Positions 37,994 through 60,868 of a stretch of 64,000 nucleotides of DNA are shown here, one piece after another. Location: contig JBBHKE010002644.1 in assembly GCA_037447655.1 (NCBI GenBank), forward strand, positions 188,001 to 252,000. The letters run 5' to 3'. The translations under genes were made by a program, and so were the position numbers. The number at the start of each line of letters is the position of its first letter. Within the stretch, counting starts at the first letter, position 1. The notes below the pieces were generated by a model, which did no database searches, had not been told where the DNA came from, and saw nothing but the letters and a program-made list of their open reading frames with translations. Source of the DNA: Zygnema cylindricum. Lineage: Eukaryota > Streptophyta > Zygnematophyceae > Zygnematales > Zygnemataceae.

Positions 37994-38726
37994 GGGTGAA
38001 GTTCCATTAAAGGAAAAGTGGCGTTTTTACAGAAATTCGGACTCCGTACCAAATCGTACTCCGCCTATTTTGTTTTATACGAAAAACAACATTACACAAA
38101 ATCTTGCCTATACTCTCCGAAGGTCTTGGAGGTAATAATGGCCGTCGGATGTTCATCTGCGAGGAGTTCACTTCAATTTTCTCTGTTACACAACCCACCT
38201 AGAGGAGGTGGGTTGGCATATACAGAAAAAATAAATTTGTGACACGTTGGACAATTAAGCTACGTGTCATGATGGAAAACCAAAGAAAAATCTTAAGATT
38301 CACACATGACACGCGGTTTCCAAAATACAACCGAAAATAAAAACGAGATTTCGTAACATTCCCTCGGCACGCTATTTTCGGTAACTTTTGTTCGTCACAC
38401 TATTTCTCTCAAAGGACTTTCGTTATGTTCGAAAATTGAAACCCTGAAAAATGAGCTGGCGTACAGACTGGCGTCTGCAAAATGTATAAAAGTTTTGTCG
38501 TACGATTACTTCGTACGCAAGTACATGGTACGCAAGTCAAGATTTGAAGTTACGTTTGTTGGTGCTAAAAATTTGAAAGATATTCAATATTGGATCGTAG
38601 CTTGCGTGGCGCCAGTCAATTTAGAACAAGTGGCTTATAGACTCTACGTGATGGAACTTCGACTCAATCGACCTGGTTTGTAGAGTTTGCCATACAATTA
38701 CAGAAACGTATGATGGAACTTCACCC
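37994..38726. mobile_element. Harbinger-like MITE, TAA-flanked, different interior
   Basis: The ends are GGGTGAAGTTCCATTA and the complement of GGGTGAAGTTCCATCATA, flanked by TAA (37991-37993 and 38727-38729). The interior differs from the other copies and includes a small hairpin, CCCACCTAGAGGAGGTGGG, near 38195. Confidence 0.8.
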
Positions 38727-39021
38727 TAAGTTTAAAAGGATTCCTACGCAAGAATCATCAATTGTAATAAAGGTATGTACATTCCACTAAAAAAAGTACA
38801 TAACGCTAAACCAAAGTACTAGACTTATAACGTAGCAAATAGGACTCTAAAAGTAGTGTAGAGAACAAAAGTAGTGTAGAATGCTCTAAGTGTATTTCAA
38901 CAACGATGTCGTTGCCAATTAGAAAAATTAGAAAAAAATAGTTTTCATTCACAAAAAAGCCAAGAAAGGAAAAAGAAAACAAAAATTTATCCTTTTTTCT
39001 TTCTTCCTCAAAAAAGAAAAA

Positions 39022-41240: not shown

Positions 41241-41372
41241 CATACATAAAATCCCACTACTTTGATTGCCACCAAATTGTGCACAAAATGTCTTTTAATC
41301 TGAATGTGTTTCATGCGCTTTTAGAAGACCGAATTCATCACAAGTGTTGTCCAAATCATTGTGTCTAATTAA
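41241..41372 (-). pseudogene. Fragment of a copia RNase H end
   Basis: On the minus strand the words KRMKHIQIKRHFVHN and KVVGFYV line up with the HKRTKHIRIQWHFVHD segment of G, with stops between. It is a short decayed tail of a related copia copy. Confidence 0.45.
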
Positions 41373-41462
41373 ATTTTTAAACACATAATCAAAATTCCAA
41401 ATTTGGCTAAGCCTTCCTTTGATCTATACAAAAGCCTTAAATGTTGTTTTTGAAAGCCTTAG

Positions 41463-41913
41463 TGTAAGGATCGAAACACATAGAGATAGAAGAAAGATAG
41501 AATATGGTGCGGAAGCAAAAGACACCAAGAAGAAGACGCTCGAGCAAAAGACAAATATATTTCACCAGAAGTTTTCCCCTTTCAAAAGATTACCTCTTCC
41601 CCAAACGACTAAGTCCTAAATACCTTCTCACGAAACTAACAAGTACAGGACAATAGCACGTCGTGCAAAAGTACACGCGCGAACCAATCAAAACAAACAA
41701 ATACCGAAACTACATAAAGTACGCGGTACCGTACGAAACAAACATACCGCCGTACAATACTAAGGTACCAACGCACTACGCACGCAACACCAAAACCAAG
41801 CATATAAAACTAAACTAATCACGCCACGCCAAACAAAGCCTCACGTAAACTATATATAAAATAAAATACGACGCTCAACAAAACTGAGACGTCACTTCAC
41901 AAAGAAACTAACA
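41463..41913 (-). repeat. LTR of copia fragment G
   Basis: Read on the minus strand it starts TGTTAGTTTCTTTGTG directly after the polypurine run AGAGGGGGAT (about 41914-41925), and ends near CCTTACA. A TATATA box lies near 41850. Only one end is secure; the TGTAAGG end (41463) is a guess. Confidence 0.5.
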
Positions 41914-41940
41914 ATCCCCCTCTCTTTGTGAAACCCCTTT

Positions 41941-42228
41941 TTAAACTGAAAACAATCCTAGTTTAGGTCGTCCACGTAGAAGTACGTCATAAACCGCCGC
42001 CTTAGTCAACATGCCTGCGGCCTCCTCCAAAGTCGACACGTACGTAAACTCAATCTCCTTCGCAACAACCAAATCGTGTACGAAATGCCACTGGATACGA
42101 ATATGTTTTGTTCGCTTGTGAAAGACCGGATTTTTCACAATCGCCATCGAACTCATGCTGGCAGTAAAGATCTGCAAGCAACCAATTAAAACGCCCAACT
42201 CTGTCGAGCGTGCCAGAAAACACCATAG
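41941..42228 (-). pseudogene. Copia G RNase H C-terminal part
   Basis: The minus-strand frame reads GCLQIFTASMSSMAIVKNPVF, then HKRTKHIRIQWHFVHD and a LLRGRPKLG tail. It matches the end of element H, but the last catalytic Asp is replaced (TASMSS for TDNMSS). Upstream the similarity stops near 42228, exactly where gypsy gag coding begins on the other strand, so both elements are cut at one junction. Confidence 0.7.
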
Positions 42229-43104
42229 GAGGGCCCAGAAAACATGAATTACTATAGAAGCTGGCGGAGCTTGAACAGGAAACCGCAGCGGGCGAAGACG
42301 ATGACGAGGTGATGGGGTGGGACATAGAACCTCCTAAAGCCCATCCTGCACAGACCTTCCTTTCTGGAGCCTGGAATGTCGGTGTGGGGGACAATCGTAG
42401 GCAGCTCCGCAACTCAACCTTGGCGCAGCGAAAGGACCAACAAAAGCTCGCTCCACGAGACCACAACAGAAACGCTACTGGACCTCAGTCCTTCACCCCC
42501 AGGGCCGTCATCCTGAACGACAACATGGGTCTCGATAAAATCTACAAACCCACCTCCACCAGCCGCAAAGAAACTGCCTCCTGGATTCGAAAATTACAAG
42601 ACAACTAAAACAAGGAAGATGGAGGAACCAGCAAAGGAGGAAGAGACGCGTGACAACCAAGACTATTTCTTAAAATATTTGGCGGAACGCTCGGAGGATA
42701 ACACGCCACAAACGCCGCCAGCGCCACAATCCGACCAAAAAAGTGAGGAAGCAGGGAAGGGGGAGAAGGAAAATCAACAGGTGGAACCAGCAGATTCCCC
42801 CATTTCGTCGCCAAAAATTCAACCTCCTTCCTCCAAACCAGCAGTGATGTTAGTAAGGCATCTAATGCCCTACGCTCTCACTCACGTGAAAACACTGGCC
42901 TCTTCTCATAACTTGCCGGAAGAAGTTCTCATCCAGGCCCTCGGAGAGGAAATCCATTCAGGAGGGGAAAAACACCGGGCCGATCAGGCCAGATCCGTTT
43001 TTTGGTCAGCAGACCCAAAGACCCCTATAATGGATAGAGACTACAAAACGTTATTTGTGGCACCAATTCTCAACCAAACGGGGAATTTCAAACTCAACGG
43101 ATAA
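42229..43104 (+). pseudogene. Gypsy F gag-like region, 5' truncated
   Basis: One frame is open from about 42258 to 42608 with an acidic stretch (GEDDDEVMGWD). After a stop and frame change, another runs 42619-43104 (KEEETRDNQDYF, then LVRHLMPYALTHVKTLA). No zinc knuckle is seen. Position directly before the protease and RT of the same strand supports a gag or gag-pol linker assignment, but no gag motif proves it. There is no 5' LTR or primer site upstream; the element is cut at the junction with copia G. Confidence 0.5.
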
Positions 43105-43409
43105 GCGGGTATCAAGACGGAGTTGTCGAAATAGGAGCACTCACAAATCTAATCACCACATCGGCTCTGCAGCAAATGCTTGAAGAACTTCGACCGGAAA
43201 TCTTCCCCAGTGACATCTACCTAAGTACTATTAGCAATGGGAGCCAACCGGTACACGGAATAATCAAAGCTATGTTAATCGAGTTTGTTGACGACACAGG
43301 TCAAAAGTTCCGAATTCAGCTTCCCTTCTTGGTGGTGGAAGGTAAGCAGTTTGAGATTTAATTGGGAATGGCCACCTGGACAAGGGTGAATATGAGATTA
43401 AGTGTGTGG

Positions 43410-44476
43410 TGTAGAAATTAATGGTCTTTTTTAAGTATTTTCTAAGTTTGAATAGAAATATAGAAAGAAGTCGAGGCATTCTACCTCTAACTTCTCTCTC
43501 CAACTCTCAAACTTGTCGCAGTCACTGAGAAATTGGAGAGGAAGCTAGAGCCATGGCTACCTAGACTATCCAGAGGTTTACGAGATATAAATATTAGTTT
43601 ATTTATAATTAAGGATATATTTACTAAAATATATATACCTCCTCTAGGATTTGAACCTGCAACCTGCCGGTCGGAAACCAGCCGGTAGCCGGTAGCTTTA
43701 AACCATTAACTCTAAAGATAGTGTTACGTACTATAGGGTTTGATATTTAATTAAACATTTATACGTAGGATAGTTCAATTAAATAAAATAGTTTTACGGG
43801 GACATTGATCCAGTAATGTAAAAGTACGGATTACGGTACGGATAAGAAACCAATACCGCGCATTTATTTCTTTACCAAAACAAATAACGCGCATGTATTT
43901 ATTACAGCTACGATTTAATCTTTAATTTAATCGGACGGCCGGAGTTAACGACGAGATCGCGGAGGAGGATTTCGGCGGTTTGTGGTCATCGCCACATCGG
44001 ATGACACATGGCGAAATTACATTGGATCGTGGTATCTCCGGAGATTACGGCACCAAATCCAGATATGACATGTGTCGACATTTAGGCAATGTCGTACAAT
44101 GTCCGTACAAAAAATACACCGGCAACTATACTTTTGTGTACGGAGGAGTAATCTGATTGGCTCCGTACATCAGTAGATAGAGTCTGTGAGAGAGATAGGA
44201 CTTAGAAAAATTAGGAGATAGGACCCTTTCTCCCAGAGAGCTTCTGACAAAAGGTCAACTTTGACCCTCCATAACTTACTGCTCAGAGGAGCAAATTCAG
44301 AGATTCTTTTTGCTATCGACTCAGGGGAGTCTTGCTTTCAAAATGGTGAAGTTGGTCAGAATTTTTGTCTGCCAGGGTGGCAGTTGTTCTTGCTAAAACA
44401 CAAAGGGGTCACGGTTATCCTAGAGGCTTCTTAGAAGCTGTCCACTCTGAGGACTTATGGAGGTCTCAGGGTTTCA
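43410..44476 (+). repeat. 5' LTR of copia E
   Basis: It starts TGTAGAAATT and ends GGTTTCA; the partner is 48825-49892. Landmarks are a GCCATGG block at about 43550, the antisense tRNA-like block, an SBP-like TCCGTACAA (44102-44110), and hairpins GACTC-AGGG-GAGTC (44318-44331) and CTGCCA-GGG-TGGCAG (44369-44383). The gag start codon (44457) lies inside it. Confidence 0.92.
43625..43716 (-). other. tRNA-like Pol III unit in the 5' LTR of E (antisense)
   Basis: On the minus strand an A-box-like TAGAGTTAATGGTTTAAAG (43696-43714) precedes a perfect B box, GGTTCAAATCC (43647-43657). A TTTT run (complement of 43626-43629) follows. The CCGGCTACCGGCTGG stretch between the boxes takes the place of an anticodon arm. 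No acceptor stem is present. Confidence 0.65.
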
Positions 44477-45560
44477 GGTTATGGGCCCACCCTTTAGGGT
44501 ACCAATCTTTAATGGAACTGGCTTCATATACTGGGAAAGTATGATGATAGGAGCTTTATGCGAAAAAAGGTTTTGGGGGATAGTGAGTGGACGATTGGGG
44601 CGTCCATCAAGTCTTGTAATTCCTCTATGGTCTGAAAGAAGCAGATTCACAAAGAAAGCAAGTCCATCTTCAACGGAGGAGACAAAGGAAGGAGAGGTGG
44701 TGGACAAAGGAGTGGAGAAGGAGTCAACCACACCAATAGCAACTGGTTCAGCATTCATGTCACATATTCCAAGGAACGAGGAGAATGATACTAAAACATG
44801 GGATTTCAAAAATATGGCGGCAAAGCACTTCATCCTACACTATCTTACTCAAGGACTTGCATGTCCTCATTTGCAGGTAGAAAGGGCATCCGATCTATGG
44901 ATGGCTCTCATAAAGATGTACCGAAGTGGTACGATTCAGCAACAACAGTTGGCTGATTAGAAAGTTAAGGAATACGTATACAAAGGGGGGAAAATGTTGG
45001 ATTTTTGCAATGAGCTTGCTACACTCTTCATGGAGCTAGAGAGTGCGGGAAAAGATTTTAGTGAAAAGAAAAGGTTAACTGTTTACTGATGAAGTTACCC
45101 GATGAGTTCGAGAACATAGTCAACCGTGAGCAAGACTTGCCGGACTCAAGGTGGATATGGAACTCAGTGGTAGGGATGATTCTCGTTCAAGAGAATACAA
45201 TTGGGATTCGAAGGGGAGGAAAGAGTGGCCAAGCCTTAGCAACAGCGACTGATTGGAGGAACAGGGATTCTCGAAAACCGGTCGGAAATTATGGGGGAAG
45301 GGAGCAGAAAAATCAGGCCGACGAGTTCGGGCCAAGGGCTCCCAAAGGTTTATGTCATTTTTGCAAGAAACTGGGGCACTATATGGCAGAGTGCACTAAG
45401 CTAACCAAGCTTCGGTTAAAGGGGGGGCAGACCGGTGGTACCTCAAGAGGAAAGAAAAAGGCCCTTGTGACACAGGTACATGAGGCGGAATCTGAGGACG
45501 AGGACGATGAGCTCTTTTTGGATGAGGAGTTGGAGGCGAAAAACGAGGTCAAAATTCCAC
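44457..45560 (+). pseudogene. Copia E gag
   Basis: The frame starts at an ATG seven codons before the LTR end, runs through the primer-binding site, and has VPIFNGTGFIYWES and WGIVSGRLGRP at the N terminus. A TAG replaces the CAG of D at 44958 (LAD*KVKEYV). A frameshift lies near 45075. A zinc knuckle, CHFCKKLGHYMAEC (CX2CX4HX4C), lies at about 45355-45395. An acidic linker (EDEDDELFLDEELEAK) leads to protease. Confidence 0.85.
44477..44491 (+). other. Primer-binding site of copia E (half-tRNA type)
   Basis: GGTTATGGGCCCACC follows the LTR directly and is the complement of the initiator tRNA-Met anticodon arm. It is identical to the D site, and in both elements it is part of the gag reading frame. 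Confidence 0.8.
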
Positions 45561-45595
45561 GAAAGCAGAAATGTGCTTACGGTGGATTGAAAGGT

Positions 45596-46020
45596 GAAGC
45601 AGGCTGGATTATTGATTCAGGTGCCTCCATGCACATGAGAAAGGATAGGCACCTGTTCACTAAGATAAGAAAGATTCCCACCGTAGAGATAGAGTACAGG
45701 GATTGGGAGGATAGTCACCACTACTTTTGAAGGATCAGTAGATCTGAAAGTGTTACTAGAAGGAAAGACATCGATAGTCTCATTCTCCGATGTATTGTTT
45801 ATTCCGGAGCTGAACAAAAACCTCATCTCTACATCCGTATAAGATGATAAGGGTTTTTTTACTAGCACTAGGGAAGGAGTCTTTACTGCTAGTTTTGAGG
45901 AGGATGTATATTTCATTGCTGAGAAAGGTAGCCATGGGATGTTTAGGCTGATTTTAAGTAATGAAACGAAGAAACTTTATTATTCTGGTGTCCATGATAT
46001 TATGATGTGGCATAAGAGGC
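45596..46020 (+). pseudogene. Copia E protease
   Basis: The sequence encodes GWIIDSGASMHMRKDRHLF, with the D-S-G active site, then KIPTVEIEYRD. A small insertion near 45707 shifts the frame to a stop at 45728. The rest, including the VLFIPELNKNLIST-like segment, continues in another frame to about 45900. Confidence 0.8.
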
Positions 46021-46900
46021 TTGGGCATGTAAATCTAGATATGTAAAGAGAGATGAAAAAGATGGGAGTGGTGGAAGGGATTCAGTTCAGTGAGAGTGAT
46101 AATATAAGTGATTGTAGTGGATGTGCTCAAGGTAAAGCACACAGATTACACTTTCCTAAAACAGCCACCTATAAGGGAGAAAAAATTCTAGATCTAGTAC
46201 ACACGAATATTTGGGGACCGGCTAAAGTGCCCTCACCGGGGGGGAAGAGATTTATGATGACTATCACTGATGATTGGTCTCGGTATTCCAGGGTGTATTT
46301 TTTGAAAAACAAGTCCGAAGCTCAGGATTGTTTTAGACAATATAAAGCATGGAGCGAAAAACTCCATGAAACTCCAATCAACAAAATAAGGCGTGACAAT
46401 GGTGGAGAGTATACTTCTAACCAGTTGAGGATTTCGGAGGGAAGATGGGGTCCAACACCAAAAGACAGTTCCAGGAAACGCGAAACAGAATGGGGTAGCT
46501 GAAAGGTTAAATAGAACACTAAGTGATAGTGCTAGAAGTATGTTGTCAGATAAGAAGATAGGAAAAAGGTTTTGGGCAGAAGCAATGAACTGTGCTAATT
46601 ACCTCAAAAATAGAGTTCTTACTTCAGCTATAAAAGATCAAACACCTTATGAGAGATGGACAGGCCAGAAACCAGACATATCTCATTTAAAGGTTTTCGG
46701 CAGTCAAGTATTCAGTCTAGATACAGATCGGTCTAATTGGAAGCTAGATCCTAAAGGAAAACCGGGATACGTATTAGGATATAATGAGGATGTTAAACGA
46801 TATAGAGTTTATGATCTAAAAAGGGAAGATATAATCTTAGTAAAGCATCTAGTAGTTATAGATGAAGGAATGTCTGTGTATCCCTTCAAAAATACAAAGT
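46021..46900 (+). pseudogene. Copia E integrase
   Basis: The zinc-binding part (a WHKRLGHVNLD-like start, then CSGCAQGKAHRL) precedes TITDDWSRYSRVYF (first Asp), RRDNGGEYTSNQ (second Asp) and, in another frame after 46440, NGVAERLNRTL (Glu). A stop in LDM*REM (near 46044) and frame changes at 46430-46510 break it. DISHLKVFGSQVFSLD and GKPGYVLGYNED follow in the open frame from 46540. Confidence 0.85.
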
Positions 46901-48140
46901 CAGTAAAGATCAGATTTGAGTCAGAAAATTCTGATGACTTTGAGCTTCCTAACTATCCAAGTTTTAGAGAAGTTGACATTCTTGCAGGTACAAATCAGAC
47001 CGAAAAAAACTCGGCTGTGGAAACTCCAGTGAGAACTCTACCCGAAGCGGAAGACGTGGTGGAAATTGATTCGGAATCAAGGGAAAAGGGAGAAGCCGAG
47101 ATTGTTCGAAGAATCCACGAGAACCATCTATTCGAGCCTCAGATTTTGAGGGGAGGGGGGAGAAGTAGCAAAAGATTGCAAGAAAAAAAGGTTAATACCA
47201 AGGTAACAAAACTATCTCATCAAGATGAACCTCAGACTTATGGAGAGGTGATGACGTGTCCAGAAAGAAACCGGTGGAAGACAGTCATCAATGAGGAGAT
47301 GGCCTCAATTATGGCAGCTGTTACTTGGGAGCTGGTGGATTGTCCACCTAACCGAAAACCAATCGGTTGTAAGTGGGTTTTCAAATTAAAACTAAACCCA
47401 GATAATACAATTGAGCGCTAGAAGGCCAGATTAGTGGCAAAGGGATTTACACAAAAGGAGGGAATTGACTACAAGGAAACCTTTGCCCTGGTCGTCAGAT
47501 TTCCCTCCGTCCGCATACTTCTCAGTCTAGCAGCAGCGGAAGGTATAGAAATGCACCAGATGGACATCAAGACAACCTTTTTGCATGGAGAATTGGAAGA
47601 GGAGATCTTCATGCGACAACCCGAAGGGTTTGTGGAGGAAGGAGAGGAGAGTAAGATATGCCGGTTGATTAAATCTCTTTATGGTTTGAAACAGGCGCCT
47701 CGACAGTGGAATAACAAGCTTGATGAGTTTCTTACCGGTCTAGGATATATCCGGATCATCTCAGATCACTCAATCTATGTTTTCGAAGATGAAGAAGGTT
47801 TTATATTTATTGCAATTTATGTTGATGATTTGTAGGTTTTAAGTAAAACAATGGAAAAAATTAATAAACTGAAAACCGATCTTAAGGGGAGATTTGAAAT
47901 GAAGGATATGGGGGAAACAAAATATATTTTGGGAATACAAGTAGAAAAAGACCGAAAAAGAAAGATTATAAGATTGACTGAAAAGGAAGCAATAGGGAAC
48001 ATGCTTAAAAAATTTCAGATGGATAAAGCTAATAGTTGTACAACTCCAATAGAGTTGAAGAAACGAAGTGAGGGGAGTGAGAAAGAAGGAGTCATAGTCT
48101 TAGACGAGGAATTATCTCCTGATGAACAGAAGTTCATGTA
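46901..48140 (+). pseudogene. Copia E reverse transcriptase
   Basis: After an acidic linker, the sequence shows ELVDCPPNRKPIGCKWVFK, then a stop in IER*KARLV (47419), then AKGFTQKEGIDYKETF, HQMDIKTTFLHGELEEEIFM, SLYGLKQAPRQWN and FIAIYVDDL (YVDD at about 47816-47827). A TAG after the active site (47833) and another after KFM (48139) are nonsense changes in a frame otherwise well kept. Confidence 0.88.
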
Positions 48141-48149
48141 GACTATTCC

Positions 48150-48715
48150 TTACAGGCAAGTAGTGGGAAGTCTAATCTATTTTATGAATTGTACCTGGCC
48201 GGATTTAGCTGCAGCTATAGGAGTGCTGAGTAGAAGTCTAAATGCTCCCACTAAGAGTGATTGGGAGGCAGCTAAAAGAGTCCTTAGATATTTGATAGAA
48301 CTAGGGCTCTATGGTTGCATTTGGGTGGGGAGAATGCTAACATCACTACTTGGAGTGATGCCAGTTATGGTGATGCTCCGATGCGGAGATGCACTTCTGG
48401 ATATGTATTATATGTGGGTGATGGGGCTTGCTGTTGGAGTAGCAAGCAGCAAAAAATTATTGCTCAGTCCACCATGGAGGCTGAGTATATGGCCTCTTGC
48501 TCTGCTGTAAAAGAATTGAAGTGGGTCAAGTCTTTGCTTGGTGAGCTTGGTCACCTTAAGAGTGGTGTGCAGAAAATATTTTGTGATAATCAAGCAGCAA
48601 TCGCTATTTCTGCCAATCTTAAACATCATTTTAAAGCCAAACACATGGACATTAGACTCAGCTTTGTTAGAGAGAAAGTAGAAAATAAAATAATCAGTTT
48701 AGAGTCCGACTAGAT
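48150..48715 (+). pseudogene. Copia E RNase H
   Basis: The sequence has PYRQVVGSLIYFMN, RVLRYLI, then in the next frame TTWSDASYGDAPMRRC, VGDGACCWSSKQQ, QSTMEAEYMA, KIFCDNQAAIAIS and KHHFKAKHMDIRLSF. The D, E, D residues are all present. One frameshift near 48295 separates the two halves. Confidence 0.88.
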
Positions 48716-48811
48716 AGTGAGATGGTAGCAGATATGATGACCAAACCTGTGCCTTCCCCTAAGCTAATTTTCTACAAGGAGAAGTGTGGTCTGAAATTAA
48801 AGATTGACTAG

Positions 48812-48824
48812 AAAATAAGGGGAG
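48812..48824 (+). other. Polypurine tract of copia E
   Basis: AAAATAAGGGGAG lies directly before the 3' LTR and is identical to the tract of D. Confidence 0.85.
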
Positions 48825-49892
48825 TGTAGAAATTAATGGTCTTTTTTAAGTATTTTCTAGGACTAAATAGAAATAGAGAAAGAAGTCGAGGCAGTCTACC
48901 TCTAACTTCTCTCTCCAACTCTCAAACTTGTCGCAGTCACTGAGAAATTGGAGAGGAAGCTAGAGCCATGGCTACCTAGACTATCCAGAAGTTTACGGGA
49001 TATAAATATTAGTTTATTTATAATTAAGGATATATTTACTAAAATATATATACCTCCTCTAGGATTTGAACCTGCAACCTGCCGGCCGGAAACCAGCCGG
49101 TAGCCGGTAGCTTTAAACCATGAACTCTAGAGATAGTGTTACGTACTATAGGGTTTGATATTTAATTAAACATTCATACGTAGGATAGTTCAATTAACTG
49201 AAATAGTTTTACGGGGACATAGATCCAGTAATGTAAAAGTACGGATTACGGTACGGATAAGAAACCAATACCGCGCATTTATTTCTTTACCAAAACGAAT
49301 AACGCGCATGTATTTATTACGGCTAGGATTAAATGTTTAATTTAATCGGACGGTCGGAGTTAACGACGAGATCGCGAAGGAGGATTTCGGCGGTTTATGG
49401 TCATCGCCACATCGGATGACACATGGCAAAATTACATTCGATCGTGGTATCTCCGGAGATTACGGCACCAAATCCAAATATGACATGTGTCGACATTAAG
49501 GCAATGTCGTACAATGTCCGTACAAAAAATACACCGGCAGCTATACTTTTGTGTACGGAGGAGTAATATGATTGGCTTCGTACATCAGTAGATAGAGTCT
49601 GTGAGAGAGATAGGACTTCCAAAAATCAGGAGATAAGACCCTCTCTCCCAGAGAGCTTCTGTACAAAAGGTCAACTTTGACCCTCCATAACTTACTGCTC
49701 AGGGGAGCAAATTCAGAGATTATTTTTGTTATCGACTCAGGGGAGTCTTGCCTTCACAAGGGTGAAGTTGGTCAAAGTTTTTGTCTGCCAGGGTGGCAGT
49801 TGTTCTTGCTGAAAAACAAAGGGGTCAAGGTTATCCTAGAGGCTTCTTGGAAGCTGTCCACTCTGAGGACTTATGGAGGTCTCAGAGTTTCA
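48825..49892 (+). repeat. 3' LTR of copia E
   Basis: It matches 43410-44476 with scattered differences. Hairpins are GACTC-AGGG-GAGTC (49734-49747), CTTCAC-AAGG-GTGAAG (49752-49767) and CTGCCA-GGG-TGGCAG (49785-49799). The middle hairpin is broken in the 5' LTR but perfect here. Confidence 0.92.
49045..49135 (-). other. tRNA-like Pol III unit in the 3' LTR of E (antisense)
   Basis: It matches the block at 43625-43716. The B box GGTTCAAATCC is kept at 49062-49072, followed on the minus strand by a TTTT run near 49041. The A box has one change (TTCATGG for TTAATGG). Confidence 0.6.
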
Positions 49893-49969
49893 TGTGGAAG
49901 GAGCAGTTTACTGTTCGAGATGTTGAGGATCCAGAAGGGGTCAAGGTGGTGGTTCCCTTGGATCTATAG

Positions 49970-51736
49970 AATAGGGGGAAAAATAATGCTCGCGTCGTCG
50001 GATGTTATCCCGTCTATGCCACCCACACACCCACAGAACTGCTCGCCAGCGCCACCGATATTGCAGACATAATATAACAATTCCCAATTTCCAAGCGGTG
50101 GGAAGAGGGATACCATAACAGATTATCACAAATAACAAAACTGCGGTCGAAAGTGGACAAATCCTTAACATATGTTTTTGTAAATGAAAAAGAACCTCGG
50201 TTGGAATCTTCGGAAGTTCCGCCCGAAAATCAAAAATTCAATCGACAAGTGGTGTCATTATCTATCCCGGATTTTGGACTCGGGATATTATTCCTATTTT
50301 TTGGAATTAGCTCGGACCTCGAAGCTGTCTTAAAAGCTGGGCATAAAGTGGAGTCATATGGGGCCGTGGAAATTTAACCGGATGCTCACGCCGTCAGTTA
50401 ATACCAACTACAACAACTCCACCAATTGTATCCCCAACAACTTCCAGTATCCGCCATCTGCAGATCTCACCAAAGTGTCCCGCAAAATATAGACAATATC
50501 CTGAAGCCACATCTCGCTATTCAGGAGCGAGTAGATTTAGTGATTGCAGGATGGCCATGTCAAGGATACTTTTTAGCAGGGAAAGGCGAGGGACATCAGG
50601 ACAGCAGAAGTCGATCCTTCTTCCAGATGATCAAATTACTTTCCTGGCTGCAGCAGTCCCAAGACTAACCAGTGGAGTACGTTTTGGAGAATGTCCACCC
50701 GGGAGATGATAAGAGAAAACAAGTCGCAAATAGCTGGAATTAAGTCAAGCAGATTCTACGAGCTCCACTTCTTTTCGATGCAGCGCAACTGGGATCCATG
50801 GCTCACAGAGTTCGGGCGTACTGGACCAATTTGATACCTCTGTCAGTCCTGAACAAGCTCTTACAGAACCACAAAATAGATTCCCAAATTACCCAACAAC
50901 AAATTTTAGGGCCAGGGTGGATGGCCACTCCAGTAACTAAGGCTGATCGTCCTCCGTTCTTCCAGTGCAACCAACCAGGAGCACCACGGCGAGCAGTGCC
51001 AACATTGGTTTCCTTCCCCAACATCCATGCGTATCGAAAGGGAGCGGCCGGAATGATATTTGACAGCAAAAGTGGAGTTTGGACAACGCCAACGGTGAAA
51101 GAACGAGAACAAGCCATGGGATTCCAACCTGCCAATACGGCGGCACCAGGTATTTCAGACCTCCAGCGCTGCAGCCTACTCGGACAGAGCATGGATCATA
51201 ATGCAATAACATGGGTGATAAAACATTCTCTGGCCTTCTCTAGCCTAGAGTCTCTGCAATCGAAGGATAGCTACCTTCAAGCTCCAAAGTTGTTAGCGGT
51301 GCAAGCCCATTTGCAGCTTGAGGGGGGGAGGGAAGCAAGAAAACAGTTTTTATCATCAAAATTTTCCTGTCCTAGCATAATACCAACAGTAAGAGATTCC
51401 TCAGTGGGGGGGAGCGGAGGCTCGGAAAGGGACAACTTAGCGGAAGTTGTTAGCAGCAACATTCTAACAGGAGGAGAAGAGGTAGACCCGCAGATAGGAA
51501 AGGAATTCGATATCTCCCGTTGGGGTAGACCCTTCGAGGCCAGGGCAGCGGTTAAACCTAAAAAGATGGATAGGACCTTAGGGGAGCAGTTGGACCCTCA
51601 CCAAAAGGCCCAGCTCTCCGACCTGTTGGAGAAGAACAAACAGGTGTTCTCCTGGTCAGATACCGACGTAGGCATCTACAAATATACCCCTTTCCGAATG
51701 GATTTAATAGACGAGACTTCTACTGTTTGGCAGAAG
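49970..51736 (+). pseudogene. Cytosine-5 DNA methyltransferase domain in the pol polyprotein of gypsy F
   Basis: The protease frame continues, without a frameshift, into a C5-methyltransferase. Motif I is GILFLFFGISSDLEAVLKAG (near 50281). Motif IV is AGWPCQGYFLAGKG, with the catalytic Cys codon at 50558-50560. Then come DSRSRSFF, motif VI VLENVHPG (ENV at 50687-50695) and motif VIII LGSMAHRVRAYWTNL (near 50790-50827). Later TPTVKEREQAMGF and LLGQSMDHNAITWVI correspond to the C-terminal motifs IX-X. After about 51230 a linker leads to the RT N terminus (LDPHQKAQLSDLLE). Stops at 50075, 50375, 50399, 50666 and 50741 (all TAA) break it, but catalytic motifs are intact. In a working element it could methylate new element DNA or host DNA. 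It is probably an ancestral host gene captured by the element. Confidence 0.85.
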
Positions 51737-52179
51737 TAATACCCTTTCAGTTTCAAGGGAAAGGAGTTCATCACGGCAAAGTACAAACTCTGGTAGAAGC
51801 AGGATAGGTGCAGGTGAGTACCGGACTCCATGGATTTGCGTCTCCAACCGTTCTCCCACCCTAGAAAGACTCTTCTGGGAAAACAGTAGACTTTCGGATG
51901 TGTGGAGATTAGCGGATGCTTAACACAGCAACTGTACCAGACTGATACCCAATGCCTACCCCGGAAGAGATTTTTGACTTGTTGGCCAGGGCCACCATTT
52001 ACTCCACACTAGACATGAATAATGGGTTCCACCAGATCGCAATGGAGCCAAAGCACCGGGAAAAGACAGCTTTTTGGACAGGGTCCAGGTTGTATGAATG
52101 GCTCTTCATGCCATTCGGGCTGAAGAATGCGCCAGCCAAATTCCAACGTGCCATGGACGAGGCGCTCCGGGGGATTGAC
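51737..52179 (+). pseudogene. Gypsy F reverse transcriptase, N-terminal part
   Basis: After frame changes near 51775 and stops, the gypsy RT words appear: KTVDFRMCGD*RMLN, then PTPEEIFDLLARATIYSTLDMNNGFHQIAMEP (motif A, TLDMNNGFHQI) and KTAFWTGSRLYEWLFMPFGLKNAPAKFQRAMDEAL (motif B, FGLKNAP). It stops at GIDC, where the solo LTR is inserted before the active-site strand. Confidence 0.85.
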
Positions 52180-53520
52180 TGTTGTTTTTGAAAAGTTAGT
52201 TTCGTGCGAACACATCGTTTCGTGCGTACGCGATGTTTCGTGCGTACGCATTTACGCGATATATTGTGGAGGTTCGAAAGGATTTATGGATTGGGGAATT
52301 AAATGTACACATAAAATTAATGGAGTAATTGAGTGGCGCGAAATGTGAGAAGAAATGGACAGCGGATCGCGAAGCAATCCGACGTGAGATAATTGACGAA
52401 GATAAAATGGTACGTTGCACGTAAAGTTCATAATGCGACACGTGGGATATATAAAAAGGACTCCGCCGGTACATAGAATCTTTTTGGGGACAGGTGTACT
52501 TATTTTTGGCAAGCGCATTCATGACGAGGAACAAAATTGCTGTACGGACAATTTCGGATGGTTTGACGAGGTTTCGACAAGTGGATTTTTTTTTACCACG
52601 CGGCGCGACATCAAGGGTGCCGATTAAGAGCGACGGACGGCGGATATAGGCCGCCGATATTTTCAAGGGATCTCATTATCTTTAATGACGTATTATTAGG
52701 TGGACCGTACATATGCGATGTCGGTTCACTACGTGGAATTATCTACGAGTGACTAAGAGAGTTGTCGCTTATGACGCGTATTTTGCGGACGCGTCGGTAT
52801 AAATATTTGATACAACATTATTTTTTCTTATGTGTATTATTAATTTAGTATTGATTATGACATTTTTATTTAAGTGATCAATTAGGGTTTTCGATAGTTT
52901 AATTTGTGTGTGTACGATGTCGTACTTGTAGACAAGTGTACGCTTACGATTGCTTGACTTTCAGGTGTACGCTTACGATTAATGTTTCTTAGTAATTGGC
53001 TATTATGGTTAAATATTACTTAATGACAGTTACGTAATTTACGTTGGTTATTTTGACACTTAGTGATTCATTGACAGCTCACAAGTGTATATATAGGAAT
53101 GAGCTTTGTTAGGAATTAATAATCAATGCTGGTTAGTAAAGTGGGGACCAAAGATGTAGTATTTTAGGGTTGTCGATTAGGTCATGCACTTTTGAATGAT
53201 ATAATGATTATACCTTGATTATACTCTTGTTTATGTGTGATGCATTTGTTTTTATTATTTATGTTATTTTATATATGTTTTGCATTGTTAATGCATTTGT
53301 CCTAGGGTTTGTTTATGTCGATTATTCCATCAAACCTTAGATGATGTCATAGGGTTTATTTATGTTGATTATTCCATGAAACCCTAAATGTTGTTTGTTG
53401 CGTCTGTGTACGCATATGGAGGATGCATTTCATATGATTGTTCGTCGACCTATTTTTGCTTAGCTTTTTGCATGATAGTTTGGGTGGCTTCTGCGGTCTA
53501 TTTTAGACCAAAGAACAACA
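52180..53520. mobile_element. Putative solo LTR (1341 bp) in the RT of gypsy F
   Basis: The block starts TGTTGTTTTTGAAAAG and ends CCAAAGAACAACA, so it has TG...CA ends with a TGTTGTT inverted terminus. The 5-bp repeat TTGAC flanks it (52175-52179 and 53521-53525). Removing it with one TTGAC copy reconnects the RT at the active site. It has no coding region. A GTGTATATATAG TATA-like site is near 53086. Near its right end a TTTATGT(C/T)GATTATTCCAT phrase occurs twice. Strand is not assigned. Confidence 0.6.
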
Positions 53521-53525
53521 TTGAC

Positions 53526-53890
53526 TGTGCATGATGCTATATCGAGGATGTTATTATTTTCTCGAAGACCTTCGAGGAACACTTGGAGCACATACAGATT
53601 GTACTCCGAGCTCTCCTAGCAGCTGGCTTGAAATGTCACTCCTGTAAGGGAGTTTTTAGGGTTCAGAAAATCATTTACCTGGGACACGAAGTTACACCCG
53701 GGACAGAGGGTCCCCATATGGTCAAAGTTGCAGCCCTTGATGCCGTTTCCCCTCCTCAAGACGTCTCTGCACTCCGCACCTTTTTAGGCCTGGCTAACTA
53801 TTATCGGAGATTGATCCCTGATCTTAGCAGCCACGCTCTTTATCGGAGATTGATCCCTGATCTTAGCAGCCACGCTCAGCCTCTGAACTA
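53526..53890 (+). pseudogene. Gypsy F reverse transcriptase, C-terminal part
   Basis: The sequence resumes with CYIEDVIIFSKTFEEHLEH: the YxDD active site reads YIED, a change of the first Asp to Glu. LLAAGLKCHSCKGVF, YLGHEVTPG, then ALRTFLGLANYYRRLIPDLSSHA follow. The 13-residue unit starting YRRLIPDLSSHA is duplicated in tandem (about 53803-53877), a recent in-frame 39-base duplication. Confidence 0.85.
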
Positions 53891-54400
53891 GTTGCTGCAG
53901 AAAGACCAGGAGTGGCAGTGGACGGAGGAGCAACAGATTGCCTTCCAGTTCCTCAAGGATTCCCTAAAGCAACACCCAGTGCTCCGAATGCCTGATCACC
54001 AAAGACCCTTTCTCCTTTACACTGGAGCCGGTTTGGATTGGGAGCTGTTTTAGCCCAACTGGATGATGCTGGGGCCGAATATGTGGTAGCTTACGCCAGT
54101 AGGAGTAATAACCGAGCGGAGGGGAATTACAACAGCTATCACGGGGAATTGCTGGTGGCGGTATGGGCCATCCAACACTTCAGACCATACCTATACAGAG
54201 TCCATTTCACTCTGATCATGGATCACCAACCTCTAAAGTGGATTATGGAGAACAGCAAGCTCACTCGCAAACTCGCCAGGTGGGTGTTAATACTACAAGA
54301 ATATGACTTGACATAATCCACCGGGTCGAAGAGATTCGTGGGAATGCTGACGGACTTAGGAGAAATCCAGACCCTTCCATAGAGAGATTCCACCGGGGCG
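53891..54400 (+). pseudogene. Gypsy F RNase H
   Basis: QKDQEWQWTEEQQIAFQFLKD and PVLRMPDHQRPFLLYTGA lead, after a frameshift near 54035, into GAVLAQLDDAGAEYVVAYASRS, NYNSYHGELLVAVWAIQHFRPYLY (the catalytic Glu region) and TLIMDHQPLKWI (Asp). This is the usual gypsy tether and RNase H order. The first Asp region is damaged by the frameshift. Confidence 0.82.
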
Positions 54401-54601
54401 CGCCATGATGAGGATCCTGAAATCAGTTTGGGACTCATTCAAGCTTCCTCTGCCTTTATTTGGCTTCCTCAATCTAGGGGGGAAATGTCAACTTTCTTTG
54501 CAGACGTGGAGGGGCAGGCGCCAATACGGGCCGGATGAAAAGACATTTGGAATGACCCTGATGCACTTCAATCTATCCAATATGGTTCCCCTCTTCCCCA
54601 T

Positions 54602-55840
54602 TTGTCTGGAGTGCAGTTATCACGGGTTTTGACTCAAATGATGGCCTATGAATGGGAAAGGGGTATTTTAATCCGCAAGTGGGCGGACGGGACGAGGAAA
54701 GTGGTTCCTCCCCGAGCTGACCGGGAAACTCTGATTCTTCGTCTTCACCGGCAATGTGGTCATTTTGGGCAGAAACGGACTACCTCCCTGGTCACCAGAT
54801 CGTACTGGTGGCACAGGTTGCGGACCGAAGTCAACCGGATTGTGCAGACGTGTTCCTCTTGTGACCGAGTCAAAGCGGCCTTCGACAAAAAAAGAGGTGC
54901 CCAACTTCATTCACTTCCAATCGGGGGAATGTTTTATCGGTGGTATTTGGATATGTTGGGCCCTCTCCCCACTACTACCCGAGGGAACCACTTTGTCCTA
55001 GTAATGATAGAGCATTTTTCCAAAAGGATCAAATTGGTGGTCTTACCCTAGAAGGAGTCTAAGGCAATTGCGGACGCATTCTTGCAAAGAGTGTTGTCCC
55101 AATTTGGGGCCCCTGCAGAAGTGTTGACCAACCAGGGCTCCGAATTTGCAGGAGAGTTCTCCAACTTGTTGGAATTATGTCTCATCGACCACCGGCTGAC
55201 CAGCCGAGACCACCCTCAGGCCGACGGTTTGGCCGAAAGGTGCGTACAGACAGTGAAGCGATCATTGTGCAAATATGCTGTGGAAGAGGATTTGGGAGAA
55301 TCGGATAGAAAGGTACCTTGGATTGCCATGGGTTACCGGTTCATCCGGCCAGCATCCCTCCACTCCTACAGTCCCTACTTCATTTTGTTCGGACGACACC
55401 CAATCCTACCCGGCACAGCCTCCGCCCAAGCGGTGGTCCTTCCGGAAATGGACAATAAGGGAACGGTCGAGAAACTGATTGCCGACAGGGCCAAGGTGTT
55501 TCACCGGGAAATGCCTCTGGCCATGGGGAATTTACAAGCAGCCCAGCACCGAGATCAACTCTGGTATTCGCAACGCCGTAGCGAGAAAATTGTCCCACGG
55601 CAACGACGATTTCTTCCCGGGGATTTCGTGTACCGCATGCAACAGAAAAGGGACACTCTAGACATTTCAGCGGGAAGGGTGATTTGGAAAGAAGTGGAAG
55701 TCTCGAATAAGGGGGTTTTGACGCTTGAAGGGAAGGATGGGCAGAGGATCAAGGAAAATCAGATTAATGTGGCTCCTTGTCACCTCCAGGGATTGGAAGA
55801 CGAACCTACTTTTCACCTTAACTATTTTGCTGATCCCCTT
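54602..55840 (+). pseudogene. Gypsy F integrase
   Basis: The zinc-binding domain has LHRQCGHFGQKRT and CSSCDRVK (HHCC). The core has YRWYLDMLGPLP (first Asp), LTNQGSEFAGEF where the second catalytic Asp is Asn, and HPQADGLAERCVQTVKRSL (Glu). A TAG at about 55050 interrupts it. The C-terminal part has a PGDFVYRMQ segment typical of the gypsy integrase GPY/F-like module. It leads directly into a zinc finger. Confidence 0.85.
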
Positions 55841-55843
55841 TTG

Positions 55844-55994
55844 TGTTCCTCCGAATGCCTGTCATCTTCTTCCCATAATTCTGTACTGGTCTGTGATCGA
55901 TGCGACCAATGTCGGCATCAGTCTTGTCTCCCCTCCTCTCGGGACCCTCGTCCTAAACCCCTTTGCTCTTTGGATCTGCAAGAACTGCGAATAG
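55844..55994 (+). pseudogene. PHD-type zinc finger at the integrase C terminus of gypsy F
   Basis: A Cys pair, CSSEC, is followed after 11 residues by CDRCDQCRHQSC, which fits CX2CX4HX2C. After a one-base frameshift come WICKNC and a stop codon (55992-55994). The C-C-C-C-H-C-C-C order, the spacings and the W before the last pair are those of a PHD finger. PHD fingers read histone H3 tails. At this position it would parallel the chromodomain of chromoviruses and could guide insertion. Confidence 0.7.
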
Positions 55995-56031
55995 GGGGGG
56001 TAATCATTCAAAAGTCTTAGTCACAGTGGAC

Positions 56032-56719
56032 TAAGAGGGGGGGGAATCAAGGACCCGGCTCCACCACTAAGGATTCCCTCCTTTCCCCTGGCCAGAGGGG
56101 GGAAAGAGAGGGGGGAGGGGATATGTTTTCGCCCTGCTAAAGCACTCATCCCCACCTTTGCATGCATGCTCACAGAAAAACAAGGCGGGCACCATTGGGC
56201 ATAGGCATTATAGTGGAGAGAATTCGCATTCTCGGGAAGGTTGATTGCGGAACTCCAATGGCGATTACCCGGGCAGTGGGCCCTCCTCTGGTATTTTCCA
56301 GCACGCTCGACAACTATCAAGCTCGAGTGCTTCCTAGTAACCCCTTTTTTTTTACCGAGTATTTCCGGCCCTTCTTCATCTGTGCGGCCCTTCAAGTACC
56401 GATAAAGGAGCGCACCTAGCCAAACCAGACTCTTCCATTTTCTTAACGGAGAAGAACGAACTTTATTTCGCGCCTAATGGAGGCCGAACAACAAAGTTAT
56501 TCCGTTCCAAATATTATCATCTTATTACATGCAACCAGTTTTCCCCTGTCCCTTTGGGGCCTACATTGTGGAACACCACGTAACTTTTGGGATAGACTAT
56601 TAGATTTTGCTGTTGGCTATTAGTAGGAAGTTACTTCAGGTCCACCAGCCGAATAGAGCATTTATTAATGAGAGTCAAAATTAGGCGTTTCACGATAATT
56701 TAGAACTTTGGTGCTCAGG
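56032..56719 (+). repeat. Polypurine tract and 3' LTR region of gypsy F
   Basis: AAGAGGGGGGGG (56032-56044) is a strong polypurine tract. It is followed by AATCAAGGACCCGGCTCC, a likely LTR start (about 56045-56050). The LTR end is not determined, and copia C is inserted at 56720. No 5' LTR copy exists in the window for comparison. Confidence 0.5.
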
Positions 56720-57816
56720 TGTTGAAATTTATGTATTTTCTAGGTCTGTATTGGAAAAATTCATAGTGTGTTGAAAAAAGGTAATTTATAGTTCACTTCT
56801 ATATTTTAGTTAGAATGTAAAGAGAGAGAAAGAGAGGACCAAAGGCAGGCCATGGCTGCTGCGTCATTTAGAAGGAGGCAGAATGAATTAGGAGGTATTT
56901 TACTAGTTTTAGCAAAATACTGTATCTGGCCGGATTTGAACCGGGGTCTGCAGAATACGATGTAGACCCACGCCTTATCCATTAAGGCACTAACGAAACG
57001 ATATACGTGACATTTTTTACACATATATATCTATTGATCTAAAAGACTAATTCGCAGCAGACTAACGAAAACGCGCATTAATCAATTCATGCATGGAAGC
57101 CAATCGAAGCCGTATAAATACAACTGATCGGACAGCCAACATTACAGCCGCCACCAACAATAATCTTTCGGATGCCTTTGAGGGTAGCGTCATGCGGTGC
57201 CACGTGGCGCCACATTATTTGATACCGGAGAAGATAGGAGGAGGAACCATGGCTCCCGATTTGGCAAATGTCACCTTGTAGACCATGTCGTACAATGGCC
57301 GTACAATAAGTACATCGCCTATCGTACCTTCTTGTACTATATAGTGTTCCTATTGGACTAGGGTTTAGTAGTAGGTAGTCGTGAGTAGGCAGATCAAGAC
57401 TTAGTGATATATAGGTACCTCTCTCTAAGAGAGCTTGTAACTATAAAGGTCATGTTTGACCAACCATAACTTAATGCTCGGGTGAGCAAATTCAGTGATT
57501 CTTTTTGCTGCGGACTCAGGGGAGTCCAAGCTACACAGAGGTGTAGTCGGTCAGAGTCTTTGCGCGCTAGGGTGTCACTTATTCAGTGGGAAAGTCAAAG
57601 TGGGGAATATTGTCCAAAACACATATTCAAGCTTTGCATTCTGTGGTGGAACTGAGCATACAGAAGGTCTTCTCTTCACAACGGTGAAGGTGTATTGGGG
57701 TTCTGATTGTCAAGGGATCATTCATTTGGGTTTATATCAACTTGGAGTCGGCATCACCTCGATTAGCTTCTTTTGGATCTGCGAATTCTGTGGGCAATGG
57801 AGCCCATAGAATTTCA
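56720..57816 (+). repeat. 5' LTR of copia C
   Basis: It starts TGTTGAAATT and ends GAATTTCA, and is nearly identical to 59773-60868. Hairpins GGACTC-AGGG-GAGTCC (57512-57527) and CTACAC-AGAG-GTGTAG (57531-57546) correspond to those in LTRs A, D and E. A GCCGTACAATAAGTAC block (about 57298) is the GTAC motif. Confidence 0.92.
56910..56996 (-). other. tRNA-like Pol III unit in the 5' LTR of C (antisense)
   Basis: On the minus strand the A box with D-arm reads GCCT-TAATGGATA-AGGC (about 56972-56988). It is followed by a GGGTCT/AGACCC arm and a perfect B box, GGTTCAAATCC (56932-56942), in a CCGG-closed T arm. A TTTT run (56914-56917, complement) follows. The D arm is like tRNA-Arg. The acceptor stem is lost. 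Confidence 0.7.
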
Positions 57817-58716
57817 GTACCCATATTTAATGGAATAGGCTTCATATATTGGGAAAGTATAATGACAGGGGCTCCATGTGAAAATAGGTTATGGGGGATA
57901 GTAAGTGGACGAGTGAGGCGTCCATCCAAATCAACCGTTCCTCCAGGGTTTGGGGGAAGCAAGTTTGCTAGAAAAACAAATCCTGCTCCACAGGAGAATT
58001 TGGAGAATGGGGAGAGCATTGTGATAGACAAACGGAAAGATAAGAAAACAGTTACAGTGATTGAACACCTATCGCAACCGGTTTAGCGTTCATGTCACAT
58101 ATTCGAAGGAATGAGGAGAATGATTTTGATACTTGGGACTACAACAATATAGCGGCAAAACACTTCATTCTCCGCCATCTTACTCAAGGACTTGCATCTC
58201 CTCATTAGTAGGTGGAAAAGGCATCCCATCTATGGATTGCCCTCATAGAGATGTACCAGAGTGGTAGTATTCAGCAGCTACAATTGACTAATTAAAAAAT
58301 AGATGCATATGCATACAAAGGGGGGGAAATGCTGGACTTTTGTAATGAACTTGCAACCCTTTTCATGGAACTAGAGAGTGCTGGTCAGGAAAAAAACAAA
58401 AAAGATGAAGGTGAACTACATGCTCATGAATTAACCCGATGACTATGGAAACATTGTCAACCGTTTGCAAGATTTGCCGGATTCCTGGTGGATCTAGAAT
58501 TTTGTAGTAGGGATGATTCTCGTTCGAGAGAATCGAATTGAGATCCGAAGGGGAGGGAAGAGTGGACAAGCTTTGGCAACAGGAACTGATTGGAGGTGCA
58601 AGAATCCCAGAAAAATCAGTAGGAAACTATGGAGGAGGACAGAAAACTTAGTTGATGAATCATGACCGAGGGTCTCAAAGGGGTTGTATCTTTTTTGAAA
58701 GAAAGCAAGACACTAT
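57742..58716 (+). pseudogene. Copia C gag N-terminal region
   Basis: The frame 57742-58086 runs from the LTR into VPIFNGIGFIYWES and WGIVSGRVRRP, matching the Gag start of D and E. Later blocks match Gag of E in mixed frames: SHIRRNEEND, YNNIAAKHFILRHLTQGLA, and CNELATLFMELES near 58341-58377. Stops and indels break it. No primer site precedes it. Confidence 0.75.
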
Positions 58717-59733
58717 ATGGTAGAGTGTACTAAGCTAAACGAGCTTTGGTTAAAAGAGGGGCAAACCGGTGGACCCCCAAGAGGAAAGAAAAAGGCCATT
58801 GTGACAAAGGTACATGAGGCAAAATTCGAGGACGAGGACGACGAGCCCTTATTGGATAAGGAGTTGGAGGCGAAAAACGAGGATAAAGTAATCTTAGAGC
58901 TTCTCCACATCGGTAGAATGGAGAGGAGAGAAAAGTACACAGAAATTCCACGAAAGCAACAGTGTGCTTTTAGAGGTATAAGGGAAGTAAAGGGAAGGGA
59001 GGTACTTAAAGGAGTTAGATATGATGTGGATGTCAACGAGTATAAAAAGTCAGATCTAGAATCTCTAATTGAAAAAGGGAAAGATAAATATAATGAGGAT
59101 AATTTCATAGATATTTTGGAAACAAAAAACTGGTTGAAAAGGGAGACTTCAACGAATTCTGAGGAAAGGGGAGAAGTAAATCTAGTGGGGGTTTTAAAAG
59201 ATACGAGAGTAAAGGAATATTTCATGAAAGGTTTAGGGGAGGAGAAATATTTATTGGGGATAAAAATAGAAAGTGACAGCGGAAAGAATTTCAGGGGAGA
59301 GAGTGAGGAAAGTTCAGAAAACGGGGTGAGTATCATGGATAAAAATATGAGTACGGAAGACGTAGATCTTATGAGTGATTTAGTGGGGACACTTGATTTT
59401 TGGGAAAATTTGGGGGGTAATGTATTTGACATCACTAATGGGAGTGATGGCATTTATGAAGGTGGGTTAGCATCTAGGTGTGTGTTGCAGATTGGAGATG
59501 GGGCTCGCTGTTTGAATTGCAAGAGGGAAATTGGATTTGGTGTAGATAGAGAAGAGATGAGGTGGATAAAATTTTGTCTTGAATTTATGAAAAATGGCAT
59601 GCAAAATAAAATGTGTGATGTAATTATTATTTCAGCTCATCTAATACACTTCTTTAAATACGAGGGTATTCACTTAAAATTTTATGAGGAGAAAAGAAAG
59701 AAGAAAAGAAAAAAGAAAAAAAAGGGTGTTTAG
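58717..59733 (+). CDS. Fused gag-tail / RT-RNase H remnant ORF of copia C (338 codons)
   Basis: This frame is open for 338 codons. It starts with the gag tail (VECTKLNEL, then KEGQTGGPPRGKKKA and an acidic linker) and then jumps to pieces matching the RT end (GLGEEKYLLGIKIE) and RNase H (TNGSDGIYEGG, VLQIGDGARC, MCDVIIIS, HFFKYEGIHLKFYEEK). Protease, integrase and the YVDD region are missing, and the RNase H Glu motif is absent. It ends in a Lys/Arg run. The product could bind nucleic acid but would have no enzyme activity. The long open frame in an element that is otherwise broken is odd. Annotated start could be later, for example the Met near 58918. Confidence 0.55.
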   Translation: MVECTKLNELWLKEGQTGGPPRGKKKAIVTKVHEAKFEDEDDEPLLDKELEAKNEDKVILELLHIGRMERREKYTEIPRKQQCAFRGIREVKGREVLKGVRYDVDVNEYKKSDLESLIEKGKDKYNEDNFIDILETKNWLKRETSTNSEERGEVNLVGVLKDTRVKEYFMKGLGEEKYLLGIKIESDSGKNFRGESEESSENGVSIMDKNMSTEDVDLMSDLVGTLDFWENLGGNVFDITNGSDGIYEGGLASRCVLQIGDGARCLNCKREIGFGVDREEMRWIKFCLEFMKNGMQNKMCDVIIISAHLIHFFKYEGIHLKFYEEKRKKKRKKKKKGV

Positions 59734-59772
59734 TGCGAGTTGAAAAGAAAGTAGACTAGAAAATAAGGGGAG

Positions 59773-60868
59773 TGTTGAAATTTATGTATTTTCTAGGTCT
59801 GTATTGGAAAAATTCATAGTGTGTTGAAAAAAGGTAATTTATAGTTCACTTCTATATTTTAGTTAGAATGTAAAGAGAGAGAAAGAGAGGACCAAAGGCA
59901 GGCTATGGCTGCTGCGTCATTTAGAAGGAGGCAGAATGAATTAAGAGGTATTTTACTAGTTTTAGCAAAATACTGTATCTGGCCGGATTTGAACCGGGGT
60001 CTGCAGAATACGATGTAGACCCACGCCTTATCCATTAAGGCACTAACGAAACGATATACGTGACATTTTTTACACATATATATCTATTGATCTAAAAGAC
60101 TAATTCGCAGCAGACTAACGAAAACGCGCATTAATCAATTCATGCATGGAAGCCAATCGAAGCCGTATAAATACAACTGATCGGACAGCCAACATTACAG
60201 CCGCCACCAACAATAAGCTTTCGGAGGCCTTTGAGGGTAGCGTCATGCGGTGCCACGTGGCGCCACATTATTTGATACCGGAGAAGATAGGAGGAGGAAC
60301 CATGGCTCCCGATTTGGCAAATGTCACCTTGTAGACCATGTCGTACAATGGCCGTACAATAAGTACATCGCCTATCGTACCTTCTTGTACTATATAGTGT
60401 TCCTATTGGACTAGGGTTTAGTAGTAGGTAGTCGTGAGTAGGCAGACCAAGACTTAGTGATATTTAGGTACCTCTCTCTAAGAGAGCTTGTAACTATAAA
60501 GGTCAACTTTGACCAGCCATAACTTAATGCTCGGGTGAGCAAATTCAGTGATTCTTTTTGCTGCAGACTCAAGGGAGTCTAAGCTACACAAGGTTGTAGC
60601 CGGTCAGAGTCTTTGCGTGCCATGGTGGCACTTATTTAGTGGGAAAGTCAAAGTGGGGAATATTGTCCAAAACACATATTCAAGCTTTGCATTCTGTGGT
60701 GGAACTGAGCACACAAAAGGTCTTCTCTTCACTAGGGTGAAGGTGTATTGGGGTTTTGATTGTCAAGGATCATTCATTTGGGTTTATATCAACTTGGAGT
60801 CGACACTATCTACATTAGCTTCTTTTGGATCTGTGAATTCTGTGGGCAATGGAGCCCATAGAATTTCA
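59773..60868 (+). repeat. 3' LTR of copia C
   Basis: It follows AAAATAAGGGGAG (59760-59772), the polypurine tract shared with D and E. Hairpins are AGACTC-AAGG-GAGTCT (60565-60580), GCTACA-CAAGGT-TGTAGC (60583-60600) and GTGCCA-TGG-TGGCAC (60617-60631). The first differs from the 5' LTR by a paired G-C to A-T change. Confidence 0.92.
59963..60049 (-). other. tRNA-like Pol III unit in the 3' LTR of C (antisense)
   Basis: It matches the block at 56910-56996, with the B box GGTTCAAATCC at 59985-59995, the same D-arm hairpin and the same downstream T run. Confidence 0.7.

Follow-up and report, generated by a model that had tools for sequence, protein, structure and literature searches.

The window, meaning the whole stretch of 64,000 nucleotides that was analyzed, contains the coding remains of a Ty3/gypsy LTR retrotransposon on its forward strand. 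These remains are cut by two insertions, and a methyltransferase domain lies upstream of RT. The features are listed in Table 1.

Table 1. Parts of the gypsy element and of the insertions within it (window coordinates).
Feature	Position	Strand	Basis
gag-like coding remains (inferred)	42258..43104	+	Two open frames, 42258-42608 and 42517-43104, preceding the protease-like part
Protease-like remains, cut by the copia insertion	about 43116..43409	+	Read from sequence; frame continues in 49893-51739
copia element inserted in the gypsy	43410..49892	+	LTRs about 43410-44476 and 48824-49892, 95.4% alike; duplication TGTGG at 43405-43409 and 49893-49897
Protease tail and linker	49893..50257	+	Same frame as the methyltransferase
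Putative Dnmt3-like C5-cytosine methyltransferase domain	50258..51250	+	PF00145, TIGR00675, PDB DNMT3 rows, pairwise comparison; four in-frame TAA stops
Motif IV, PCQG with the catalytic Cys	50555..50566	+	Sequence motif
Motif VI, LENV	50684..50695	+	Sequence motif
Motif VIII, RVRAYW	50807..50824	+	Sequence motif
C-terminal block KEREQAMGF	51098..51124	+	Sequence motif; aligns with the DNMT3A equivalent
Linker and first RT part	51251..52179	+	RVT_1 53.7 bits on 51946-52188, above cut-off; frame change between 51739 and 51946
1341-bp insertion in RT, solo-LTR-like	52180..53520	.	TG...CA ends, duplication TTGAC
Second RT part	53526..53891	+	RVT_1 24.3 bits, below cut-off 29.6
RNase H	53996..54316	+	RT_RNaseH 105.4 bits, above cut-off
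Integrase, H2C2 zinc finger and core	54539..55840	+	Integrase_H2C2 59 bits, above cut-off; rve_3 13.3 bits, below cut-off 26.5; core otherwise read from sequence
Possible PHD-like zinc finger, Pol C-terminus (weak)	55841..56017	+	PF00628 18.1 bits, E 0.0028, below cut-off 24; PDB best E 0.011

The Ty3/gypsy order of protease, RT, RNase H, and integrase is present, with the protease and the integrase core recognized by sequence reading only. The protease pieces matched no Pfam family, and no Pfam family scored above the cut-off for the gag-like frames. The copia insertion and its duplication together amount to 6488 bp, and by this length the protease-like stretch falls in the frame of the methyltransferase. 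The sequence-only reading had placed the methyltransferase between protease and RT, continuous with the protease. The single frame was borne out; the protease-like part itself was found at about 43116-43409, split off by the copia element, and position 49970, from which that reading started, belongs only to what follows it. For 52180-53520, a DNA transposon had also been considered, but the TG...CA ends and the 5-bp duplication favored a solo LTR. The LTRs of the gypsy itself were not found: self-comparison of the window gave no match, and no 13-mer was common to 56000-56718 and 36000-43409. Because other elements cut both ends, the absent LTR pair does not count against gypsy membership of the intact element. 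Scans of the viral contigs and genome contigs collections confirmed no relatives of the element.

Other repeats were observed in the window. A second copia copy lies inverted at 18736-25137 and is about 89% like the copy at 43410-49892. Just downstream of the gypsy, at 56719-60868, another copia-like element has a short internal region between long LTRs that are about 97% alike. An open frame containing long SPPP repeats occurs twice, at 8976-9989 and 33237-34451, in inverted copies that are about 83.5% alike and end similarly; no Pfam family was found for it. The RVT_1 match of open frames at 39152-40669 (29.3 bits) narrowly misses the cut-off of 29.6; these frames are perhaps a non-LTR RT remnant. 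Eight open frames elsewhere in the window had no Pfam match with an E of 1 or below, and the window contained no tRNA gene and no Rfam match.

A C5-cytosine methyltransferase at this locus had been proposed from the letters alone, and the Pfam profile search agreed, with and without read-through of the stops. The stop-free piece 50402-50665 matched PF00145 (DNA_methylase) with 29.1 bits (E 8.6e-7; cut-off 22). The domain at 50258-51250, with X at the four stops, matched with 31.6 bits (E 1.6e-7; cut-off 22). A profile search across the 50250-51215 region had been named beforehand as a possible refutation, and a significant DNA_methylase match was obtained; the match spans about motifs III-VI only. 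TIGR00675 (dcm) gave E 1.4e-10 and 41.4 bits, which does not reach its curated cut-off of 100.65. Among the PHROGs families matched by the domain, four are DNA methyltransferases (best E 2.9e-9) and another is of unknown function. The predicted structure of the read-through domain alone had a mean pLDDT of 37.6 and was of no use.

Of the motifs claimed earlier, IV (PCQ), VI (ENV), VIII (RVRAYW), and the C-terminal KERE...GF block are present and in order. Motif I, at 50297, is retained only in a worn form, FFGISSD, in which the second Gly of FxGxG is lost. DRM enzymes carry their motifs in a rearranged order. The order in the domain (I, IV, VI, VIII, C-terminal block) is canonical, without the DRM-type rearrangement, which is named for the DRM class by de Mendoza et al. 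(2018; PMC5890265). The C-terminal half alone matched no Pfam family and gave no significant PDB match; its top row was a nuclear receptor (E 0.2), followed by eight DNMT3A rows (E 1 to 1.9). A second PDB search of this half returned four rows, with no methyltransferase among them. The C-terminal half was accepted as methyltransferase because of its pairwise comparison with DNMT3A, described below.

A PDB sequence search (E up to 10) returned 46 rows. Twenty-nine were DNMT3A/3B/3C (best E 6.8e-8), and all of them stood above every HhaI row. The remainder consisted of 11 M.HhaI, three DNMT2, one HaeIII, one other cytosine methyltransferase, and one unrelated receptor. DNMT1, CMT, and DRM, which were compared through this search only, were absent from the 46 rows. 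Pairwise tests were performed with 1000 shuffles, using manually entered DNMT3A and M.HhaI sequences. The phage enzymes used for comparison came from 11 loci, drawn from 27 distinct records in the 29 rows listed, among 111 matching records; the genes L008 and L011 are incomplete at the locus end. On pairwise evidence, the domain appears to be Dnmt3-like, a class named more sharply than in the sequence-only reading. The 14-row tree leaves the domain unplaced, on a branch of 4.28, and one of its 11 inner branches was starred (HhaI, Javan240, and SpP; 100/100).

Two other identities were weighed against this assignment. A domain of the HhaI/Dcm class, not Dnmt3-like, is very unlikely. Up to motif VI, the domain resembles both enzymes, with a slightly better score for M.HhaI (92, z 15.7) than for DNMT3A (82, z 13.0). 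PCQ in motif IV is common to the domain and M.HhaI, and the tree held with the HhaI group has a p-AU of 0.52, compared with 0.38 for the tree held with DNMT3A. However, for the part after motif VI, 446 of 1000 shuffles equaled the score against M.HhaI (28), whereas none of 1000 equaled that against DNMT3A (63, z 8.2), and the PDB ranking likewise stands against this class. It is doubtful, with rather more in its favor, that the enzyme was acquired from a Dnmt3-like enzyme of phage-like or bacterial origin instead of from the DNMT3 of the host. All 11 phage enzymes have PCQ in motif IV (PCQG in about nine, PCQS in FPSVS27, PCQA in Javan240 and SpP), whereas DNMT3A has PCND. Whole-domain scores ranged from 107 to 194 against the phage enzymes, the highest being Perkons (194, z 37.5) and BU2 (173, z 31.0), against 121 (z 19.7) for DNMT3A and 105 for M.HhaI. 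Trees holding the domain with Perkons or BU2 (p-AU 0.71 and 0.68) exceeded the free tree in likelihood, by 6.46 and 5.23, but none of the constrained trees gave a significant test. In a rerun of the part after motif VI with the phage set, DNMT3A fitted best (z 8.3) and the best phage enzyme reached z 5.4; seven phage enzymes had z of at least 2.9, and the others were Vib1021 (2.1), SpP (2.0), Javan240 (1.3), and Vib1049 (-0.3). The sole eukaryotic DNMT3 in the tree and the pairwise set was mammalian DNMT3A, with no plant or algal DNMT3, which also weakens the case for a phage source. In addition, the KnitGypsy enzymes were assigned to the Dnmt3 class (de Mendoza et al., 2018; PMC5890265).

The link between the methyltransferase and the gypsy rests on the reading frame. 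Over 49893-51742, the frame of the methyltransferase contains seven stops (49967, 50075, 50375, 50399, 50666, 50741, and 51737), versus 34 and 23 in the other two forward frames. In 2000 first-order Markov resamples, the stop count never came down to seven (mean 27.7, minimum 11). The stretch 50744-51736 is open for 331 codons and covers the C-terminal part of the methyltransferase, the linker, and the start of RT; another 2000 resamples contained no open stretch of this length (maximum 259). Since this stretch spans all three parts, the enzyme belonged to the same polyprotein. A methyltransferase gene and gypsy pieces might also have met at this locus by chance, through nested insertion or recombination, in a family that never carried the domain. 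Nested insertions are common in the window and a single copy was seen, yet such a meeting is highly improbable. Starting in the protease-like part, a single frame extends across the methyltransferase and into RT, the 331-codon stretch crosses the methyltransferase-RT border, and the layout is already known in Klebsormidium nitens (PMC5890265). A C5-cytosine methyltransferase domain fused in frame with gypsy RT is supported. Its place in the Pol frame is as in DNMT-carrying gypsy elements such as KnitGypsy-Dnmt3.

The copy is a pseudogene, with four in-frame stops within the domain, a frame change in RT, and the two insertions. As the sequence-only reading had it, the copy is dead through stop codons and keeps the catalytic Cys and ENV (PCQG and LENV). 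A genetic code with stops as sense was considered and set aside. At 47419, the copia copy carries a stop, whereas its opposite-strand sister copy has Tyr, and for this reason the stops look like decay; the argument is weak, as it concerns a single site. Taken together, these remains represent a Ty3/gypsy LTR retrotransposon that is dead and was interrupted twice, and its Pol carried an apparently Dnmt3-like methyltransferase between the protease, named by reading, and RT. We put the probability of this identity and architecture at about 0.82.

At the other end of Pol, the last 59 residues contain C-x2-C-x4-H-x2-C at 55892-55927, the sole match in the six frames of the window. The C4HC3 ligand set is incomplete, with C-x3-C spacing in the first Cys pair and no final Cys. 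Among 27 PDB rows, the best were Bromodomain-containing protein 1 (E 0.011), the ATXR5 PHD domain (0.065), and KDM5A (0.081). The Bromodomain-containing protein 1 and KDM5A rows presumably match through their PHD fingers. The module would at best be a PHD-like finger in decay. In the literature listings, the one paper on a PHD finger with gypsy integrases concerned endogenous retroviruses, and the term PHD does not occur in the main text of PMC5890265, a count that leaves its figures aside.

For intact relatives, the use that we favor, tentatively, is that the enzyme would be with RT in the particle and would methylate new cDNA before or at integration. As a result, new copies would enter the genome CG-methylated and host-like. 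The PHD-like finger might perhaps read histone tails and aim integration. Methylation of cDNA was proposed for SymbioDIRS, and two SymbioDIRS enzymes methylate CG in yeast; the KnitGypsy enzyme gave no methylation in yeast, a result called inconclusive by its authors (PMC5890265).

It is unlikely, though worth weighing against cDNA marking, that the enzyme instead restrains the spread of its own element or of rivals, which would make the element a benign parasite, or that it targets RNA or serves as a binding protein. Slower transposition to the benefit of the host was named for DNMT retrotransposons generally, and RNA methylation for the LINE type (PMC5890265). The gypsy and copia parts are CpG-poor, as for elements ending up methylated, with observed/expected ratios of 0.67 in the methyltransferase part, 0.65 in later Pol, and 0.51 in copia. 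However, the copia element, which has no enzyme, is at least as CpG-poor as the gypsy; therefore, host methylation explains the CpG scarcity without the enzyme. Across the sixteen 4-kb blocks of the window, the ratio ranged from 0.56 to 1.5 and was near or above 1 in many non-transposon blocks. The scarcity in the transposon parts fits general host methylation and decay of the elements, and says nothing about the enzyme. A wider and quite speculative reading can be formulated. A gypsy lineage beyond the one alga described may join a methylation writer (Dnmt3-like, with a phage-like PCQG, perhaps not from host DNMT3) and a chromatin reader (PHD-like) in one Pol, which could allow new copies to be aimed as well as marked.

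Cytosine methyltransferases borne by retroelements are known from few hosts, and PMC5890265 is the one primary report recognized in the literature searched, as far as its texts were available. The paper had been named in the sequence-only reading for retroelement-borne methyltransferases, and it says what was claimed. In K. nitens, gypsy elements carry Dnmt3 domains in the Pol frame, with Ka/Ks under 0.2 (PMC5890265). DNMT3 members in streptophyte and dinoflagellate retrotransposons are also mentioned in PMC12344493, which writes 'LTR Copia and DIRS' where PMC5890265 has Gypsy. DNMT3 is present in moss and was lost during angiosperm evolution (PMC6453930), and transposons with DNA methylases are stated to be absent from land plants (PMC6338049). 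Were the host of the present element a land plant, the element would conflict with this last statement. A DNA transposon of a brown alga with ParB and N4/N6 methyltransferase domains is of another kind (PMC12477816). The available text of PMC9033089 contained nothing on element-borne methyltransferases. Another case, if backed by an intact family, would show how widely the strategy occurs, and would make testable the shaping of the host methylome, which is left open in the available text of PMC5890265.

Among known systems, the Dnmt3-like phage methyltransferases, for example those of Psychrobacillus phage Perkons and Bacteroides phage BU2-2 (tblastn 63 and 58 bits), likewise have a PCQG motif IV and a similar size. 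In contrast to the domain described here, the phage enzymes are stand-alone genes, with identities of 25.5-41.1% over 17-70% of the query among the matches listed. SymbioDIRS-Dnmt3 and SymbioLINE-Dnmt of Symbiodinium are likewise retrotransposons with a cytosine methyltransferase, and SymbioDIRS has the enzyme in Pol with RT (PMC5890265). They belong to the DIRS and LINE classes, whereas the element here is LTR/gypsy with an integrase. The closest known system is KnitGypsy-Dnmt3, in which a Dnmt3-related domain, not rearranged, likewise lies in the gypsy Pol frame (PMC5890265). This likeness is one of layout as described, not of sequence comparison; the copy here is dead, and its PHD-like finger has no counterpart in the main text of that paper. 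The element is a further case of the arrangement known from K. nitens, unless its host or the PHD-like finger makes it a variant.
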